Shown: positions 7,167 to 28,417 of the stretch, piece after piece
Layout of the letters: each line of letters starts with the position of its first letter
Position numbering within the stretch: position 1 is the first letter of the stretch
NCBI GenBank assembly: GCA_947175435.1
Contig: CAMWMS010000009.1
Location: 1-35,226, forward strand
Direction: 5' to 3'
Length of the DNA: 35,226 nt
From: an uncultured Lachnospiraceae bacterium
Lineage (GTDB): Bacteria; Bacillota; Clostridia; Lachnospirales; Lachnospiraceae
Notes under the pieces: generated by a model
What the model was told of the DNA's origin: nothing
The model's input: the letters and a program-made list of their open reading frames with translations, nothing else
Database searches by the model: none
Translations under genes and position numbers: made by a program

Positions 7167-7344
7167 ATGATATCCCTCCATGTTGTGAAATAAAATAGTG
7201 ACATCCGTGTCCTATTATTACGTTAATGTGATCTGTTATGCCGCTAATGACGGCATTAAGACATAGATAGTCTTACATATATTATCTCGGCATTTCTTTG
7301 AATTTGTAAAGAGGAAAATCGAAAAAATTTAAGATTTTTATGAC

Positions 7345-10444: not shown

Positions 10445-10786
10445 GAACAGCATTGATTATATTCTGGTAGGCGATTACTATATTCCGGACTTAAAATTGC
10501 CAGCGGAAAATCGCCCCATCGGACGTTATGGGCGGCTGCACAAGGAATATCTCAAGCAGGAGCATCCGGCACGGTACACTTCCCTATTCTTGACTGGGGA
10601 GTTATGGACATACCTTGCCGACCTGAGCGAGCAGGCTGAGGAACGGCTGCTCTTATCATAGAGCAAATGAAAGCTGCCGAGGGAGTGACTGAGGGACTGA
10701 AAAGCCGAAATCAATGGGTAGGGCAGATGAATAATATCCGTAACCGGGCAGAGGAAATTATAAGGAGTGAATTGATATATATTTGA
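10416..10786 (+). pseudogene. tnpV: tnpV-like transposon gene, frameshifted
   Basis: Frame 1: ...YYIPDLKLPAENRPIGRYGRLHKEYLKQEHPARYTSLFLTGELWTYLADLSEQAEERL then stop; continues in the other frame from ~10652 as LIIEQMKAAEGVTEGLKSRNQWVGQMNNIRNRAEEIIRSELIYI*. Confidence 0.75.
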
Positions 10787-10827
10787 TTGCGACATGGAGC
10801 GACCAGATGGATGAATGACTGGTTCCT

Positions 10828-11154
10828 CTAATTCTTTTTACGATCTAATACCGCCTGAATCATGATGGCAGCGATTTCCTGTTCGCCGGGTGATGTGTTT
10901 TCCCAAAGCTCTGTCAATTCCCTGATTTTACTGATTTCATTATTTGCCAGAGAATCTTGGAGAAGATAATCAGGGGAGATTTTTAGTGCATTGCAAATAT
11001 TTATAAATACTGGCAAGCTTGGAACCTTCGTCCCACCTTCAATCTGCCGAAGATAGGTTGCGTTGACGTTGCATAGCTCTGAAAGCTTGTCAGCCGTGAG
11101 TCCCCGGTTCTTTCTCACTATGTTAATCCGTTTGCCTAATCCTTTACTTTCCAT
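10828..11154 (-). CDS. XRE-family transcriptional regulator
   Basis: MESKGLGKRINIVRKNRGLTADKLSELCNVNATYLRQIEGGTKVPSLPVFINICNALKISPDYLL is a canonical Cro/CI HTH. Confidence 0.88.
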   Translation of the reverse strand: MESKGLGKRINIVRKNRGLTADKLSELCNVNATYLRQIEGGTKVPSLPVFINICNALKISPDYLLQDSLANNEISKIRELTELWENTSPGEQEIAAIMIQAVLDRKKN

Positions 11155-11200
11155 TTGTTCACCCATTTCATAAGCTGTTAGCATTTATTTTGTTCTCTTT

Positions 11201-11270
11201 TAGACTATATTAAACATAGGGATTGCAATAGATACTATAAGACTATATAATATAAGCCAATAGACTATAA
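11201..11270. promoter_or_regulatory. Cluster of (T/A)AGACTATA direct repeats upstream of the minus-strand XRE gene
   Basis: TAGACTATAT (11201), GATACTATAA (11231), AGACTATATA (11240), TAGACTATAA (11261). Confidence 0.4.
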
Positions 11271-11462
11271 AACATGAATAAGGAATAGTAAAATGGAATG
11301 GGACTACTTTAAAGACAAATTTTTGTTTTACTGAATGACAGGGAGGATTTGTGAATTGTTATTTTGGACGCAGACGAGCGGAATAATCTGCTTACTGGCA
11401 GGACGGGCGGGAATGTAGTTGAACTTGTGTGCTGGGAAGCCACAGATAAAGAGGACAAATGG

Positions 11463-11654
11463 AAGAACACAAACTGACGGTTTTTATGGGCGTGGTGTTA
11501 TTAAAAAAGCGCTGCCACGGATTCGTTTGCAAGGCAAGTGGTTGGAACGGGCAGGATTTGTACAGGAGATAAAATCAAAGTGAATTGTCAGTCGGGGCAG
11601 CTTATTATCACAAAGGATGATCCGGAACCAGGCATCGGAATGAAAAATAGATAA
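11463..11654 (+). pseudogene. SymE-like toxin remnant, frameshifted
   Basis: PRIRLQGKWLERAGFVQ | (1-nt shift) GDKIKVNCQSGQLIITKDDPEPGIGMKNR*, matching the SymE pattern (R-I-R-L-x-G-K-W-L-x-x-A-G-F-x-x-G-x-x-(I/V)-x-V). Confidence 0.6.
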
Positions 11655-11871
11655 ATATGGAGATTTTAGGATGTATTTCTTAGATAGCCTATTCCATCTG
11701 GAAAAGTATTTTATAAGGTCACATATCAGGATGAAGACAAGGATTCTTACATTCCATATTTATGTGATCTTTTTTTGCGATTGGAAAGGAGGATAGAATC
11801 AGAGTCAAATTACGGAGAATTATATAAGAGTTGCTTGAAATGTGTGAATGCAGGAAGAAAGAAAAGAGGGA

Positions 11872-12405
11872 ATGACAGTGAGGAATTTGAAAAAAACAAC
11901 AAGCAGAACAATATGTGTGCTTTTGACTGCGGTGATGCTGTGTGCGGATACGGGAGTGACAGTATATGCGACATCGGGAGCGGAGCAAAAAGTTTTAGAG
12001 GGAGTCGTGGAGGAAATTTCGACGGGAGAAAAGCAAACAGAAGAAGGCCAGGCAGAGGAGCCTTCCAAGGAAGATGAGCGAACAGAAGGGGATATAACGA
12101 AAGAAGGAGAGACAGGAGAATCTTCTTCGGAGAAAATGCCGGTGAAAGGAGAAAATACGGACGAAAAATCCGATGAAGAGAATGCGGAAACAGGTGTAAC
12201 AGAAGAAAATCCTGTGACGAAAGAAGGGACGGAGGCAGAGAATCCTGATGTTGAAGATGAGGAAAACATAGGGGATGCGTCGATAGAAGAATCTGTGTCG
12301 GAAAATGATGTAGAAGGAGATTTGGAAGATAATTTGGAGGTCGAAGTTAATGCTTTCAGAGATAATATTGCAAGTGGTGAGTATAAAAAAATGGCAACAA
12401 TATAA
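11872..12405 (+). CDS. N-terminal segment (signal peptide plus acidic Glu-rich region) of BspA-like surface protein; ends by frameshift in an A7 tract
   Basis: MTVRNLKKTTSRTICVLLTAVMLCADTGVTVYA signal peptide, then a long E/T/S-rich region. Stop arises only because of the phase of A7 at 12385-12391. Confidence 0.75.
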   Translation: MTVRNLKKTTSRTICVLLTAVMLCADTGVTVYATSGAEQKVLEGVVEEISTGEKQTEEGQAEEPSKEDERTEGDITKEGETGESSSEKMPVKGENTDEKSDEENAETGVTEENPVTKEGTEAENPDVEDEENIGDASIEESVSENDVEGDLEDNLEVEVNAFRDNIASGEYKKMATI

Positions 12406-15400
12406 TCTGGACCATTACTGCGGATGGGATATTGACGGTAGAGGGAGAAGGTGATTTTTCGGATAATTACAGGATACCTTGGCGTGATTATAGCCACTCT
12501 ATTAAATCTGCTGAAGTAAATGTTAAAGGTATGACGAATGCTTCCTATATGTTTTATGACTGCAGCAACCTGACGAGTGTAGATGTGAGCGGCTTTGATA
12601 CGAGTGAAGTAACAGATATGAGTTATATGTTTCATCAATGTAGTAGTCTGACAAATTTAGATGTGAGCGGTTTCGATACGAGCAAAGTAACAGATATGGA
12701 TCATATGTTTAGTTATTGTAAAAATCTGATAAATTTGGATGTGAGTGGCTTTGACACGAGTCAAGTAACAGATATGGATCATATGTTTGGTGGCTGTATC
12801 AACTTGATGAGCTTGGATGTGAGTGGTTTTGACACGAGTGAAGTAACAAATATGTGGGCGATGTTTAATGGATGTGTCAGCCTGATCAACTTGGATGTGA
12901 GCGGCTTTGACACAGGTCAAGTAACAAGTATGGGTTGGATGTTTAACCGTTGTATCAGTCTGACAAGTTTGGACGTGAGTGGCTTTGACACGAGTCAAGT
13001 AACAGATATGAGGTACATGTTTAAAGATTGTATCAGTTTGACAAGTTTGGACACAAGTGGCTTCACTGGTAATATTTCAGAGATGTATGCTATGTTTAAA
13101 GGCTGTGGCAATTTGACAAGCCTTGATTTAAGTGGGCTGGCTGTTAGTAAAGGGGTTCAGACTGATGATGTGTTTACAGGGTGCACAAGTTTGACTACAA
13201 TTCATACCCCGCTTAATCTTGAACGGTCAATTACGCTGCCCGGGGAATCGACAGATATATGGTATCAGATGGATGGAGCAGAAATTACAGAACTCCCGAT
13301 GTATTTAAATTACAGTATTGTGATAAGCAAAAATGAAATACCGGTTATTAAATCAGCGTTAACGGCAACGAAAACAAAGACAAATTATGGCTGTGGAGAT
13401 CGGGTGGATATCGATGATTTGACTGTAACGTATTATGATGCTGACGGTATAGGAACTAAAATAACAGAGGGCTATTCTACAAATGCGGATGAGATAGATA
13501 TGTCTACCTTGGGCATCAAGATATTGAAGATAACTTATAATGGTTTGACCGCAACAGTGATGTTAAATGTCAAAAGCGGTTTCAATGGAAGTTTTGGCGC
13601 TATTACATGGGTCATTGATGTGGATGGGAAATTAACGGTGGATGGAACGGGTGATTTTTCAGATGATGACGGTTATTTCAATCAGGAGAGAGCACCGTGG
13701 TATGATTATGCGGATGATATCATATCTGCGGAAGTAAATGTTACAGATATGACGAACGCCTCTTATATGTTTAACGGGTGCAAGTATATTACAAGTATAA
13801 GTTTAGCGGGGGTTGATACGAGCAGAGTAACAAATATGGGCGGGATGTTTTATGATTGTGAGAGTCTGAAACGTTTGGATTTGAGCGGTTTAGACACGAG
13901 TCAGGTAACAAATATGTCTGAGATGTTTTATAATTGCAATAGTCTAAAAAGTTTGAATGTGAGCGGCTTTGATACAAGCCAAGTAACGAATACGAGAAGG
14001 ATGTTTTATGATTGTGAGAGTATGAAAAGTTTGGATGTGAGCGGCTTAGACACGAGTCAAGTAACGGAAATGGCTGGTATGTTTAGCGGGTGTAGCAGCC
14101 TAACAACCTTGGATGTGAGTGGCTTTAACACAAGCCAAGTAACAAGTATGTGGGATATGTTTAATAATTGCGAGAGCTTAACCAACTTGGATGTGAGCGG
14201 TTTAGACACGAGTCAAGTAATAGATATGGCTGGTATGTTTAGTGGGTGTAGCAGTCTAACCAACTTGGATGTGAGCGGCTTTGACACGAGCCAAGTAACA
14301 GATATGGCTGATATGTTTAGTGAGTGTAACAGTCTAACTAGCCTAGATGTGACTGGTTTCGATACAAGTAATGTAATAGATAGAGAATATGGTGGATGGC
14401 AAGGTATGGATGGAATGTTTTCATCTTGTAGCAATTTGGCAAGCTTGGACATAAATAGTTTCAATATGAGTAAATTAGACAGCGTATCTGGTATGTTTAT
14501 TGGTTGCACAAGCCTTGCAACAATTTATACTCCATGCAATATAAAATGTCCAGTTTCCCTCTCAGGGTCGTGGAATACAAAAGATATTTGGTATGATGAA
14601 GACGGGAATAAATATACAGAATTACCACAGAATCTGGACTACAGCATTCTCATCAGAAGAAATAAAATGCCTACTTTCGGTGAAATTGAGGCAAAAAAAG
14701 TAGAAACCGATTATATCTGCGGTGATACGGTCCATATTGATGATTTAACGGTATTATATTATGATGATTACGGCGTAGCGCATACACTTGGGAGCGGTGA
14801 ATATGCAACTAACGTTGATGAAATCGATATGTCAACGGCAGGAGAGAAAACATTAATTATAACCTATAATGATGGCTGGGACATTCTCACTTATAGAATC
14901 AAACTGACTGTAGCAAAGTATATGTTGAATGCTGACAATGTAATGATAACGCTGTCAGACACCTCGGATTATGTTTATGACGGAAATCCCAAAATACCTG
15001 AGGTAACGGTAGTGTATGTACTTGACAGTTACGCTGTAAGCGAAAATTCCACAACTGGCAGATATATCACATTGGAGAAAGACAGAGACTACACCGTAAC
15101 CTATGAAAACAATACAGACGCATTTGAAACCAATGCGGATATAGAGATGGCGAAAAATGCTCCCAGAGCCATTATTACAGGAAAGAATCAGTATGGCGGA
15201 ACAATCAGCAAATACTTTTCCATTCGAAAAGCAGAAGCGCCAAGGGGAGAGGAACAGGCTGTATTGATTCAGGACTTTGGTGAGGTACAAGAAGGACGTA
15301 CATTTGATCTCTCGGGATGTTTTGCAGATTATGGCAGTAAGACCAGATATTCGGTGGGACTGCCTATAGAGGACAATACGGTGCCCGGCAGTGTGCTTTC

Positions 15401-17933
15401 CGGGAAAGTTTCAGTGGATAAGAACGGCATTTTAACCTACGGAACAAATGCGGGAAAGGCCGGGGATTTTGCAATCATTCCAATCGTGGTTTCTTTCTCC
15501 AATTATAAAAGTGCCGGTCTTAATGTGAAAATCATATTTGATAAGCTGACACTGACGGTAGCCGATCCCATGGCTGTCCCAGAATCTGAAAGGCAGCTTG
15601 TTGCAGGCTCAAAGGTCACCCTGACATGCGAAACGGCAGGCGCGGGGATTTATTATACGACAGGTGACAGTGAGAAAGCATTGGCAGATCCGACGAAAAA
15701 AGACATTCGATATACAGAACCGATTACCATCGACAAAGATATGTATATAAAGGCAGTGGCCATAAAAGACGGCAACCGGAGCAAAATAGTTACGCTTCAT
15801 TATACTGTAATTGATGCGGCAGATAAAGTTTTAAGACCTTATGCTGTTCCGGGACAGGGTACAGTCGAGAACGGGACGAAAGTGGAATTAAAGTGCGATA
15901 CACCTGCTGCGGAAATTTATTATGTGACGGGTCAGAATGTGGATATGCTCGGCGCTGTGCCTGTGGATGATGCCCATAAGTATACGGAACCGATTGAGAT
16001 TACTAAGGATATGGTAATTAAAGCGATTGCCAAAAAAGACGGTATGAAGGACAGTGACCTTTCGACATTCAAATATAAGACCAAAGTGATACTTGATGCG
16101 CCTGTGGCTGATCCGGATCCCGGCATAGTTGACCGGGGAAGTTACATATCTTTGAAAGCTGGCAGCAATGTCAACATTTACTATACAATGGATCTGAGTA
16201 ATCCAGTGACGTCAGGATCGGCAAAGCTTTATGAGAAAAAGATTCGGGTTGACGGTGATCCAGGCAGTTCCATAGTTATTAAGGCCGTTGCGGAAAAGGA
16301 CGGTATTTATAGTGAGACTGCTGTCTTTACCTACACGGTTTCCGAAAATATAGTAAAAGGTTTACAGGTTATGCTGGCAGGCGATGACGAATTTACCTAC
16401 ACTGGAAGAGCCATTACTCCCGCAGTCATCGTTACTTATAATGGGGAAGAACTTACGGAAGGCAAAGACTATACGGTACGGTACAGCAATAATGTGAAAG
16501 CGGCGGATAAAAATGCGGGCAAGGCACCCAAGATCACGGTAACCGGCAAAGGCAATTTGACCAATAGCAGAAGTGTTACTTTCTGCATTGCACCCAAGGA
16601 CATTGGAGATGAAGTGGATGTAGTGGGTGGAAACATTGTGGTTGTGCAAGGAAAGACTGCTTCGCCTGTACTGTTTTATGACGGTGTGAAGCTGACTGCG
16701 AAGGATTTTGTGAACCCGGATGCTAAGAAGAAATATAATCAGGATGATACGGTGACGATTACAGGGAAGGGTAACTTCGAAGGGACGCGCGATATCGATG
16801 TCAAGGTTGTCAATAAGGCGGATTTGAAGAAATTCACTGTTACTATCAATAATCAGGCATTAAAAGAGGAACCCTTGGTTTATGACGGTGAAGCAAAAAC
16901 ATTAGATGGTTATTTCGAGGTTTTTGACAAAGCAGATAAATCAAGTCCTTTAGAAGAGTCTAGTGATTATACAGTCATTTATCCTAGGAATAATATCAAT
17001 GCGGGCAAAGTAAAGTTTACGGTTATAGGATTAGGTGAATATTACGGAACGGTTACTAAGACTTACACGATTAAGCCCAGAGTTGTTAAAACAGAGGCGG
17101 ACGGCAATATGGAAGTGAACGTAGATGATGGTGATAATTACTCTTTCAGAAATGGCGGTGTTACAATACCTGATTTAACTGTCATCTGCGATGGCGATGT
17201 CCTGGTTCCGGGAAAAGATTATAAGGTTACATATAGCAACAACAAGAAAATCTGTACGGATAGCAAGGCAAAATGCACCATATCCTTCACGGGCAATTAT
17301 AAAGGTAGCAAAGCGCTTACGCGGAAATTTAATGTTATTCCTGCTGTGCTGGATGATGTCGATCAGGTTAACGGATCGGAAATCGTTGCAGTCGGCGACA
17401 TGGTTTATAAAGGCAAACCCGGCGCTTATAAGTCAGTGCCTTATGTGACTGCAAACGGTGTACTGCTGAAATCCGCTGATTATAAGGTGTCTTATTATCA
17501 AGATCAAGACATGACACAGGTGATTGACGGCAAGACTGATTCGAGTTCGGTTGATCTTGCTGAAAGCGATAAGCAGACTGTGTATGTGAAGATTGAAGGT
17601 AAGGGGAACTACGAAGGCACTTTAACTGCGGCGTACAATGTCTACAGATTAACGGAGGATGTCATTGATCTTTCAAAGGCAAAGATAAATTTTGTTGGAG
17701 GAAATAGAGTAGCATATACCGGGGAAAGCGTTGAGCCTGAAATAGAGGTTATGTACAAGTCAGGAAAAGAATGGAAAAAAGTAGATGCCGATGATATTGG
17801 GGCATACGTGAAGGTTACTTATATCAATAATTTGAACAAGGGCAAGGCATCTGTAATGATCAATGGCAACGGCGGCAAATACGCGTGCAGCAAAACCGCA
17901 GTGTTCAGCATTGTGCCAAAGAGCATGAAGTAA
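12406..17933 (+). CDS. BspA-family (DUF285-type) leucine-rich-repeat surface protein, main body, with Ig-like/chitobiase-type C-terminal repeats
   Basis: Many copies of LTxLDVSGFDTSQVTDMxxMFxxCxS at a 26-aa period; later modules of type ...LTCETAGAGIYYTTGDSEK.. / ..LKCDTPAAEIYYVTGQ.. and FTYTGRAITPAVIVTYNGEELTEGKDYTVRYSNN. ORF track first Met is 12432. Confidence 0.9.
12540..13190 (+). repeat. LRR-coding tandem array 1 (78-bp period)
   Basis: GATGTGAGCGG-type repeat starts at 12582, 12660 and 12738, i.e. 78 bp apart, and continues. Confidence 0.9.
13750..14530 (+). repeat. LRR-coding tandem array 2 (78-bp period)
   Basis: Second run of LDVSGFDTSQVT..MFxxC repeats, flanked by homologous entry (ITWVIDVDGKLTVDGTGDFS) and exit (WYDEDGNKYTELPQNLDYSI) motifs. 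Confidence 0.9.
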
Positions 17934-18324: not shown

Positions 18325-18501
18325 ATGAAAGAGCCAAGCACATATAAAGTCGTCAGGGAATATGGCAATCAATACGGGTTGGAAGAACTAATGCGGCGGA
18401 TTATACGTTGTCATCTCGGGGAAAGTAATTATGCCGAAAGGGCAGGTGTGCAATTCCCGGAATCCAAGGTAGATGATTATGGCGTGCAGCTTACCGGATA
18501 A
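18325..18501 (+). CDS. 58-aa small protein just upstream of the recombinase (below ORF-track cutoff)
   Basis: ATG 18325 preceded by AAGGAGGTTAACAG (strong SD); MKEPSTYKVVREYGNQYGLEELMRRIIRCHLGESNYAERAGVQFPESKVDDYGVQLTG*. Confidence 0.6.
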   Translation: MKEPSTYKVVREYGNQYGLEELMRRIIRCHLGESNYAERAGVQFPESKVDDYGVQLTG

Positions 18502-18508
18502 AGAGCAT

Positions 18509-20101
18509 ATGCCTGAAAATAATAACCAGTTAAAAACAGCATTATACATTCGTCTTTCGAGAGAAGACGGCGACAAATCGGAGAGCCTGAGTATAAGCAA
18601 TCAGCGTTTGCAACTGATGGAATATGTCAGCAGGAAGACGGATTTGTACCTGTATGATACATACATAGATGATGGCTATACAGGAACTAATTTTAATCGT
18701 CCTGCTTTCGAACGGATGATTAAGGATATTGAGTCCAGAAATGTACAGTGTGTGGTTGTCAAAGATTTGTCCAGACTGGGCAGAAACATGCCAGAGGTTT
18801 CAAGGTACATAAACGAGTATTTCCCGGCTAAAAAAGTTCGCTTTATTGCCATAAACGACAGTGTGGATAGAAAGTATTACGATAACGACGCCAGTGAAGA
18901 TATGATGATTGATGTCAAAAATATGTTTAATGGTTTTTATCCAAAAGATATATCCAAAAAGGTACGCTCGACTTTCAGAACCAAACAAAGCAATGGTCAG
19001 TTTATAGGTGCGTTTGCCAGCTTTGGATATGTTAAGTCGACCAAGGACCACAACAAACTGGAAGTTGATGAGTATGCGGCCGGTATCGTAAGGCGTATTT
19101 TTGCCATGTATGTCAAAGGCATAGGACAGAATACAATCGCAAAAATTCTAAATGAGGAGAACATACCATGTCCGTCAGAATACAAGAAGCAGCAAGGGCT
19201 CAACTATCATAACAGCAACCGGCTTGATGCAACCTCTTATTGGACATATTCTACGATAAGAAATATTTTAAAGAATGAAATTTATATTGGAAATATGGTG
19301 CAGAATAAGAGCTTTAGGCAGATGTGCAAGAAAAGTGCGGTAAGCCTTCCCAAGGAGCAGTGGATTGTTGTTGAGAACACGCACGAGCCGATTATAGATA
19401 GGGATACATGGGATAAAGTTCAGGACTTGTTGAAGAGAAATACAAGGCATACCAGTCTTACAGAAAATGTCCACATGTTTGCAGGTTATTTGAAGTGCGG
19501 TGACTGTGGGCGTGCCATGGTTAAAATTAGACGTAAAGGTGTCTGCTTCTTTAACTGCGGCAGTTATAACCGGTACGGAAAGAAATTCTGCAGCATTCAC
19601 AGTATCACGGAACAGGAGCTGGAGGGAATCGTACTGGATGATTTGAATCTGATTATCAGTTCTGTAAAGGATATCAGCCGGCTGATTGAAGAAGAAAACC
19701 AGAAGCAAAGAAAGAATCATGCAGATTTTCTGGGAGATATCTCTAAGTATCAGGTAGAAATTGACCGACTCGTAATGAAGAAGGAACGTGCCTACGAAGA
19801 TTATTCAGACGGCCTCATTACAAGAGATGACTACATGAGGTACAGAGATAAATATGAGCAACAGATTAGTACTGCCCGCTCTGCGATTGAAAAAATCAAT
19901 CAGTTGAAAAGCCAGGTGCCTGCAAAGAATCCATGGATTGAAAAACTGCTGCAATATGAGAAGCTGTACCGCCTTGACAGGGATATAGTAGTGGAAATGA
20001 TTTCCATGATTTACATCTATGAGGACAATACGATTAAGATTGTCTATAACTTCTCTGACGAATTGGAAGCATTATTAAACCGGCATGCCTGCAGTGATTA
20101 G
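18509..20101 (+). CDS. Large serine recombinase (resolvase + recombinase + zinc-ribbon domains)
   Basis: TALYIRLSREDGDKSESLSISNQRLQL, DTYIDDGYTGTNFNRPAFERMIKDIE, VVVKDLSRLGRNMPEV; FAGYLKCGDCGRAMVKIRRKG..FNCGSYNRYGKKFCSIHSI zinc ribbon; C-terminal coiled coil. Confidence 0.96.
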   Translation: MPENNNQLKTALYIRLSREDGDKSESLSISNQRLQLMEYVSRKTDLYLYDTYIDDGYTGTNFNRPAFERMIKDIESRNVQCVVVKDLSRLGRNMPEVSRYINEYFPAKKVRFIAINDSVDRKYYDNDASEDMMIDVKNMFNGFYPKDISKKVRSTFRTKQSNGQFIGAFASFGYVKSTKDHNKLEVDEYAAGIVRRIFAMYVKGIGQNTIAKILNEENIPCPSEYKKQQGLNYHNSNRLDATSYWTYSTIRNILKNEIYIGNMVQNKSFRQMCKKSAVSLPKEQWIVVENTHEPIIDRDTWDKVQDLLKRNTRHTSLTENVHMFAGYLKCGDCGRAMVKIRRKGVCFFNCGSYNRYGKKFCSIHSITEQELEGIVLDDLNLIISSVKDISRLIEEENQKQRKNHADFLGDISKYQVEIDRLVMKKERAYEDYSDGLITRDDYMRYRDKYEQQISTARSAIEKINQLKSQVPAKNPWIEKLLQYEKLYRLDRDIVVEMISMIYIYEDNTIKIVYNFSDELEALLNRHACSD

Positions 20102-25837: not shown

Positions 25838-28417
25838 ATGGATAACAGAGCAGTAGCGAAGAAAATTGCAGGGGAAGCAATCGTACTATTAAAAAACAAT
25901 GAACACCTTCTACCTTTTCCAAAGGGGCAGAAGGCGGCATTTTTCGGAAGAGCGCAGATTGATACCGTCTATTCCGGAAACGGGTCGGGTGCGGCTCACA
26001 AATCGGGATGTAAGACGATATTAGAGGAATGTGAGAAAAAGGGAATTTGTGCAGAACACAGGCTGAAAGAGTATTATGCAGAGCAAATTGCCAAAGATGA
26101 GAGTACAAAAGAAAATGAATTCGATTGGGCTGATATAGGCAAAGTGATCGCCAGCGGCGCTATGTATGAAATCTTCGGAAAGTATCATGCGCCCATAGAG
26201 GAATATGAGATATCGGAAGAACAGATGAAGACTGCTGGACAGTATACGGACACAGCGGTTCTGGTGCTCGGAAGGAATTCCGGCGGTGAGGAATGCGACA
26301 GACATCTGCAGGGAGATTATTATTTGACGGATTCGGAGAAAGATTTGACGGAGCAGGTGTGCGGACATTTTGAAAAGGTAGTCCTGATCTTAAATGTCAA
26401 TGGACTGGTGGATTTATCATGGGCGGAGGACTATCCGCAGATTAAGAGTATTCTGTTTGCCGGGATTTTAGGGGAGGAAGGCGCTGCTGCACTGGCAGAA
26501 ATTCTGACCGGAACAGTCAATCCGTCGGGCAGGCTGGCATTTACCATTGCAAGAGAATATGGGGACTATCCGGCAGCCAGACACTTTTCATGGGATAAGG
26601 AAAACGAAGAAAGTTTGCTTACCTATGAAAGTTATGGATTAAGCGCAGAGGAAAATGGAAGCACGGGATATGCCAAAAGTCCGGTTACTGTTTACTATGA
26701 AGATATCTATGCAGGATATCGATATTTTGATACCTTTGCAAAGGAACCGCTGTATGCCTTCGGCTATGGATTATCTTATACGGAATTTGAAATTAAGTGC
26801 CTTGGTGCAGTAAAGGGACAAGAGGGTATTGAAGTACGGGTGTGTATAAGGAATATTGGAAATACAGCAGGTAAGGAAGTCGTACAGCTATATCTGGCAA
26901 ATAGCAACAGTGCTTATGAACATGCTTTTCAGGAATTAAAAGGATTCGAAAAGACAGAGTTTATACAGCCGGGAGAGGAAGAACAGCTCTGCATTACGGT
27001 TCCGTGGAAGGATTGGAGCAGTTATGATGAAGAAAAGGCGGCTTATCTGATCAGGCAGGGGGATTACCGGATTCTGATCGGGAATTCCTCGCGAAATACA
27101 AAAGTTGCTGCGCTGGTGCGGGTAGAGCAGGATATTCTCATGGAGCAGTGTACAAACCGCCTCGGTATTAAGGAATGCAATCGTGTGAAGCTGGAATTTC
27201 TGACTTGTTTAGGGAAGCGGGGAGAAAGTATCGCTCAGGATAAGGTGATAGAAGGAAACACTCTGGGGAAGATTTTGGAGGGAAATTCTCAGGAGGAGAT
27301 GATAGAAGGAAATACTCTGGGGAGGATGATGCCGGAGCAGAAGCCGGGCGAAAATACATCGAAATGGGATTCATGTGTACCGGAAATTAGTATAAATCCT
27401 GAAGACGTTAAAGTGATGGAGCATATGAATGTTCCGGAAACCTGTGACAGCATAAGGGAAAAGGTTAAGAACCTGTCTGTCGAACAGCTTGCGGCACTCT
27501 GCGTGGGATATGGGCCGGGTACGCCATTTGCTGCTTTCCGAGAGGAAAACGATCCGGAAACGATTTACGACCGGAATGGGAAACCGATTACAACCAACAG
27601 CCATCCCATCGGATATAATGGTTATGTTTCGCCGGCGATCGAGGAAGCGGGAATCTATTCTGTGTCATATAAGGATGGCCCGGCGGGGATCGGTGAGATG
27701 GCATGGCCGTCGGAAATGCTGATGGCTTGTGCATTTAATAAGAAGATGTGGTATGAATTCGGGAACGCCGTAGGAGCGGAGTGCGAAAAACAGCAGGTTG
27801 ATGTCTGGCTGGCACCGGCGGTAAATCTGTTGAGACACCCTTTGGGTGGGAGAAACTTTGAGTACTTTTCGGAAGATCCCTATTTAACCGGAATCTGTGC
27901 CTGTGAGGTGACGAAGGGGGTTCAGAGAAATCATCCGGTTCTGGTCTGCCCCAAGCATTTTGCGGTAAATGAGCAGGAGACCTTCCGCCGGGGAAGCAGC
28001 AATAAACATTATGACGCGGCGGATTCCATTTTAAGCGAGCGGGCGGCAAGGGAGATATATCTGAAACCTTTTGAAATGCTGGTAAGAGAGGCGGATGTTG
28101 CCTGCCTGATGACATCTTTTAATAAGATCAACGGTGTGTTTGCGGCAGGAAATGCAGACCTTTGCACCCATATCTTAAAGGAGGAATGGGGATACAGAGG
28201 TGTGGTCGTCACGGACTGGGGCGATATGGATGTGGTAGTGGACGGCGCGGATGCCGTTGCGGCGGGCAACGATGTGGTCATGCCCGGAGGCCCTCCGGTA
28301 ATTATGCAGATTCTGCAGGGGTATCAGGAAGGCAGGGTGTCCCGGGGAAATCTGGAGGTCGCGGTCGGGCATTTATTGTATATGACTGAGAAAATATCCG
28401 ATTCAGCGGGCCATTGA
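25838..28417 (+). CDS. Glycoside hydrolase family 3 beta-glucosidase-like protein with inverted domain order
   Basis: Begins with the GH3 C-terminal domain (AVAKKIAGEAIVLLKNNEHLLPFPKGQKAAFFG), then an Fn3-like region; ends with the GH3 TIM-barrel (YKDGPAGI, WLAPAVNLLRHPLGGRNFEYFSEDPYLTG, CPKHFAVNEQET, VVVTDWGDMD). GAGGAGG SD. Confidence 0.92.
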   Translation: MDNRAVAKKIAGEAIVLLKNNEHLLPFPKGQKAAFFGRAQIDTVYSGNGSGAAHKSGCKTILEECEKKGICAEHRLKEYYAEQIAKDESTKENEFDWADIGKVIASGAMYEIFGKYHAPIEEYEISEEQMKTAGQYTDTAVLVLGRNSGGEECDRHLQGDYYLTDSEKDLTEQVCGHFEKVVLILNVNGLVDLSWAEDYPQIKSILFAGILGEEGAAALAEILTGTVNPSGRLAFTIAREYGDYPAARHFSWDKENEESLLTYESYGLSAEENGSTGYAKSPVTVYYEDIYAGYRYFDTFAKEPLYAFGYGLSYTEFEIKCLGAVKGQEGIEVRVCIRNIGNTAGKEVVQLYLANSNSAYEHAFQELKGFEKTEFIQPGEEEQLCITVPWKDWSSYDEEKAAYLIRQGDYRILIGNSSRNTKVAALVRVEQDILMEQCTNRLGIKECNRVKLEFLTCLGKRGESIAQDKVIEGNTLGKILEGNSQEEMIEGNTLGRMMPEQKPGENTSKWDSCVPEISINPEDVKVMEHMNVPETCDSIREKVKNLSVEQLAALCVGYGPGTPFAAFREENDPETIYDRNGKPITTNSHPIGYNGYVSPAIEEAGIYSVSYKDGPAGIGEMAWPSEMLMACAFNKKMWYEFGNAVGAECEKQQVDVWLAPAVNLLRHPLGGRNFEYFSEDPYLTGICACEVTKGVQRNHPVLVCPKHFAVNEQETFRRGSSNKHYDAADSILSERAAREIYLKPFEMLVREADVACLMTSFNKINGVFAAGNADLCTHILKEEWGYRGVVVTDWGDMDVVVDGADAVAAGNDVVMPGGPPVIMQILQGYQEGRVSRGNLEVAVGHLLYMTEKISDSAGH

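Follow-up and report, generated by a model that had tools for sequence, protein, structure and literature searches.

The window analysed here (35,226 nt; contig C9 of a 293-contig, 3.17-Mb, 82%-complete assembly that is probably a metagenome bin) contains a frame-broken member of the BspA-type/DUF285 LRR surface-protein family, in which a run of seven adenosines (A7) lies between the signal peptide and the LRR body. The break is rather likely to represent a lineage-specific OFF allele that arose by slippage or deletion within the A7 run of a gene with an ancestrally joined frame. Such an allele would revert at a low rate at best, and nothing indicates that its tract was selected as a switch.

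An A7 run separates the signal peptide from the LRR body

The initial annotation had placed the A7 run between a signal peptide and a BspA-like body of about 1,850 aa, and both its coordinates and its reading proved correct (Table 1). The upstream frame was listed as an open reading frame at 11848-12405; its likeliest start is the GTG at 11878, which aligns with the ATG of the ortholog described below and is closely preceded by the SD-like motif AGAGGGA. The frame ends with ..ASGEYKKMATI* at a TAA (12403-12405). The body frame (-1) is shut on its 5' side by a TAA at 12384-12386 and stays open from there to 17933 without a further stop. These two stops confine the shift to 12387-12402, and alignment to the ortholog puts it inside the A run. 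The window sequence at the break is TATAAAAAAATGGCAAC. As at contingency loci, the tract thus lies where a change of its length toggles the frame of a coding region. The proposed homology between the peptide IIWTITADGILTVEGEGDFS and the second-module opener ITWVIDVDGKLTVDGTGDFS was also confirmed.

Table 1. Features of the surface-protein gene and its leader in the window
Feature	Coordinates	Strand	Remarks
Leader hairpin (CACATA..TATGTG) followed by T7	11717..11777	+	Terminator-like; also found 5' of the ortholog
Upstream frame, cut off early	11878..12405	+	Signal peptide (MRNLKKTTSRTICVLLTAVMLCADTGVTVYA) and acidic linker; ends ..EYKKMATI*
A7 run	12385..12391	+	Site of the frame break; A3-G-A4 in the ortholog, one base longer with open frame
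Body frame	12387..17933	+	1,848 codons and stop; two LRR modules without in-frame signal peptide
Second-module opener ITWVIDVDGKLTVDGTGDFS	13601..13661	+	Internal paralogue of the peptide directly 3' of the A7 run

Pfam searches of the body returned DUF285 (E = 2.9e-94, 6 stretches) and LRR_5 (E = 2.3e-25, 4 stretches), the repeats that define the BspA-type/DUF285 family, together with Big_3, CHB_HEX_C_1 (CHB_HEX_C), Fn3_assoc and further C-terminal repeats. No Pfam domain was detected in the linker. Signal peptide and repeats share one frame in the ortholog and do not in the window. In a joined frame, the gene would encode a secreted LRR protein of the DUF285/BspA type, about 2,000 aa long and displayed at the surface.

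The ortholog reads through the tract in one frame

The C-terminal 777 residues were used as a query against 77 genomes of the same genus. A single clear ortholog was obtained (G058:C124; 76% amino acid identity over these residues), which is encoded by an open reading frame of 2,336 codons without stops, and the remaining matches showed at most 51% identity. All 53 genus matches to the C-terminal region were free of internal stops. The window DNA aligns with G058 from the leader up to the tract, across both the signal peptide and the linker, and at the tract the ortholog has TATAAAGAAAACGGCAAC (EYKENGND) in frame with its own signal peptide and body. The body of G058 starts with EYKENGNDITWVID, and two further modules begin with GEYKENG and GEYTENG. 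A scaffold gap of 301 N lies directly 3' of EYKENGND, with an identical stretch of 24 bases on either side, possibly because one copy was divided in two during assembly. Linker and body are linked across the gap and the frame is consistent on either side. As G058 reads the signal side and the body in one frame, the joined frame is ancestral, as judged from one ortholog with halves linked across a scaffold gap. Compared with G058, a single base is missing from the window, and the loss falls within the tract itself. The initial annotation had reached the same view from the internal module similarity, and G058 supports it independently.

The C-terminal parts of G058 and the window differ with a dN/dS of about 0.10 at a dS of 1.38, which indicates purifying selection between the species, even though such a pairwise value cannot date the break. 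The LRR part was left out of this estimate because its dS was saturated and its repeat register uncertain. Decay of a pseudogene would be visible as additional lesions and relaxed constraint; the body shows neither, with 1,848 codons free of any other stop and the low C-terminal dN/dS, but decay may still underlie the break. Since the body is otherwise free of lesions and its C-terminal part is under purifying selection, the break, if real, would be recent. Plain nonsense decay or error is also found in the LRR family: a surface protein gene in another genome of the genus (G039:C52; L070, reverse strand, about 7196-7198) is interrupted by an in-frame TAG that is flanked by stretches of 635 and 1,394 open codons.

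The A7 tract itself is ordinary

Run lengths were counted in a 435-kb sample of the window genome, which also served for the frame-break statistics given below. A/T runs of lengths 4 to 9 occurred 3007, 982, 306, 94, 18 and 2 times, a smooth fall in which the 94 runs of seven place the A7 at genomic background. The gene itself holds three A7 runs, the one at 12385 and two others at 11890 and 14693. The tract is also not conserved, as G058, the sole ortholog found, has an interrupted A3GA4, a type of tract that seldom slips. Because of this interruption the A7 is lineage-specific and not a conserved switch. An A-tract break was sought in the other surface-protein genes retrieved from the genus and was absent from all of them. 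The frame break is unusual and the tract is ordinary. The interpretation that had been suggested for this site is therefore supported only in part: the break and the ancestral frame hold, whereas a dedicated ON/OFF switch finds no support in a tract that is unconserved and of background length in a genus in which G8-G10 tracts are switch-like instead.

In Mycoplasma hominis, the frame of the vaa adhesin gene is turned ON and OFF by a short A tract close to its 5' end, as had been suggested for the A7; reversibility was shown there in clones, unlike for the window A7, which is known from sequence alone. A close parallel is offered by inlA of Listeria monocytogenes, which also encodes an LRR surface protein and has a short A run early in the gene (PMC2831843). 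In-frame alleles carry either the interrupted A2GA4 or an uninterrupted A7, and the one-base-shorter A6 allele is out of frame, yields a truncated product and can be reverted by slippage (PMC2831843). The change from A6 to A7 occurs at a rate of about 5.5e-7 and that from A7 to A6 at about 3.9e-8, whereas deletions in the interrupted run stay below about 3e-10 (PMC2831843). The two genes differ in that the inlA tract follows 8 aa and the window tract a secreted linker of ~170 aa, and in that reversion was measured in Listeria and the species studied here is represented by one sequence (PMC2831843).

Given these allele rates, a two-step route in which the interruption was lost before a slip is plausible. 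We infer that either the interrupting G was lost, or that it was changed to A with subsequent slippage, leaving the A7 OFF allele. This allele could yield just the secreted linker peptide, and the body of 1,833-1,848 codons would then be left without a signal peptide. Replication slippage could revert the A7 at low frequency, as with the short A runs of inlA. Most likely, the site would thus hold an OFF allele that reverts slowly if at all, and not a hypermutable switch.

Alternative explanations for the frame break

The main rival explanation is an error of consensus or assembly, in which case the true genome would have the joined frame and an intact gene. The assembly is indeed fragmented, and a 5.5-kb body that is otherwise free of lesions and under purifying selection has the appearance of an intact gene. 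This explanation was nevertheless judged unlikely after proteins of the related genome G055 were aligned to the 435-kb sample (121 well-aligned queries, 112 kb). In the 95-112 kb of coding sequence compared in this way, a small sample, none of the nine A7 and 31 A6 runs within conserved alignments was broken, and the one other frame-break candidate (L123, about 2957) lies outside any homopolymer. Within the limits of this sample, homopolymer errors are not widespread in the assembly, and a short-read consensus is usually correct at an A7. Another possibility is that some full-length protein is made from the A7 allele as it stands, by programmed -1 ribosomal frameshifting or by transcriptional slippage. 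An A7 is mildly slippery and the body is intact, but the zero-frame codons TAT AAA AAA ATG are out of phase for a tandem slip on X XXY YYZ, downstream RNA structure is at chance level compared with shuffled sequences (z -0.15), and the ortholog joins the frames at the DNA level. Programmed frameshifting was dropped for its wrong codon phase and absent downstream structure. Efficient transcriptional slippage usually requires about 9 or more A, and its occurrence at the A7, which the initial annotation had considered, found no positive evidence here. The whole explanation is regarded as highly improbable.

Slipped-strand phase variation, in which the tract length would flip within the population and turn the surface protein ON and OFF, fits the architecture well, with the tract placed between signal peptide and body. 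BspA-type LRR surface proteins of Candidatus Mycoplasma girerdii are likewise frame-broken by simple repeats and 'off' in the dominant genotype, and are phase-variable via dinucleotide repeats; these are of the (CA)n type with at least 5 units and show read-level length variation, whereas a single A7, seen in an assembly alone, is present here (PMC5476646). The window genome and its relatives also show the same architecture with G8-G9 tracts, both in-frame and out-of-frame. Against a switch at the A7 itself stand the unconserved A3GA4 of the ortholog, the background length of the tract and the published A6/A7 rates of ~1e-8 to 1e-6 per cell, well under those of typical contingency loci; furthermore, the switch-like tracts of family members are G8-G9 and none consists of A. 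Phase variation at this site was consequently rated as quite unlikely, and the slowly reverting OFF allele is preferred.

G8-G10 tracts are candidate switches of the genus

Long G tracts are distributed differently from A tracts. In G055 (1.2 Mb; L127-L186), G/C runs of lengths 4 to 10 were counted 3289, 449, 13, 0, 3, 25 and 3 times, a bimodal distribution with a mode at 9 and none at 7. The 31 tracts of G8 or longer in this genome were assigned by a crude rule to an open frame (9), to a position before an out-of-frame body (7), near a frame end (10) or to non-coding sequence (5). The genes concerned include those for an acyltransferase, a polysaccharide deacetylase, a glycosyl/pyruvyl transferase, a methyltransferase and GGDEF-EAL proteins. 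Runs of G9 or longer are present in 73 of the 77 genomes of the genus. Across the order, exact G9 runs mostly number 0-2 per genome, with higher values in a few other genera.

Seven G8-G10 tracts were located in the window genome (G000), at C17:17314, C28:14959, C89:7101, C93:54, C114:68, C126:2769 and C139:3877 (L207, L210, L211, L213, L215, L218 and L219). In C89, a G9 lies between signal peptide and surface body, all in one frame, and in C126 the signal peptide and a body of CBM26, PUD and CBM48-type starch-binding modules are in different frames at a G8. The G8 in C28 splits an ATP-grasp sugar-transfer gene. In large surface proteins of relatives, G9 tracts were found out of frame (G047:C172, L190; G113:C13; G113:C19) and G8 tracts in frame (G113:C3; G107:C4, L206). 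The three G113 loci on C3, C13 and C19 correspond to L196, L199 and L203, and G003:C11 (L202) was also listed among the G-tract loci of the genus. The layout of signal peptide, tract and body that had been guessed for the A7 is thus found in this genus built from G. By their placement and lengths, the G8-G10 tracts are probably the real phase-variation layer of the genus.

The literature that was searched contained no description of G-tract switches in the Lachnospiraceae. A comparable system is the pilus switch of Bifidobacterium breve, a surface gene of a gut Gram-positive bacterium that is switched when a homopolymer slips during replication; its G tract of demonstrated length plasticity is unlike the A7 and resembles the G8-G10 tracts of the genus (PMC9187656). 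Taken alone, the A7 break adds a further case, after inlA, of an LRR surface-protein gene with an OFF allele caused by a short homopolymer. Its main value is in pointing to the G8-G10 tracts, of which some genomes hold dozens in surface and glycan genes, and their putative phase variation is directly testable in metagenome reads. That the A7 is itself a live, population-polymorphic switch and forms part, together with the G8-G10 tracts, of a genus-wide homopolymer phase-variation programme is doubtful and given little credence. If true, gut Lachnospiraceae would use this programme to toggle giant surface proteins of the LRR and polysaccharide-binding types, by splitting the signal peptide from the body.

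Genomic neighbourhood

The leader hairpin lies about 100 nt 5' of the start codon and may be an attenuator or mark where the upstream unit ends. Its folding (z -1.36) is not significant by itself, and its conservation was judged by eye. Directly downstream of the surface-protein gene, a large serine recombinase (Resolvase, Recombinase and Zn ribbon domains) is encoded at 18473-20101. Control by an invertible promoter was considered and dropped, since a search for inverted repeats at 10600-12000 and around the recombinase gave no more than a single short palindrome and two pairs of 12-14 nt, both weak. A scan of viral contigs for the general tract pattern gave no match, and an exact 21-mer match in a viral contig (L076) was rejected as it encodes an unrelated peptide. 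Further downstream in the window, at 25838-28414, a glycosyl hydrolase family 3 protein shows a permuted domain order, with its C-terminal and Fn3-like domains ahead of the N-terminal catalytic domain.
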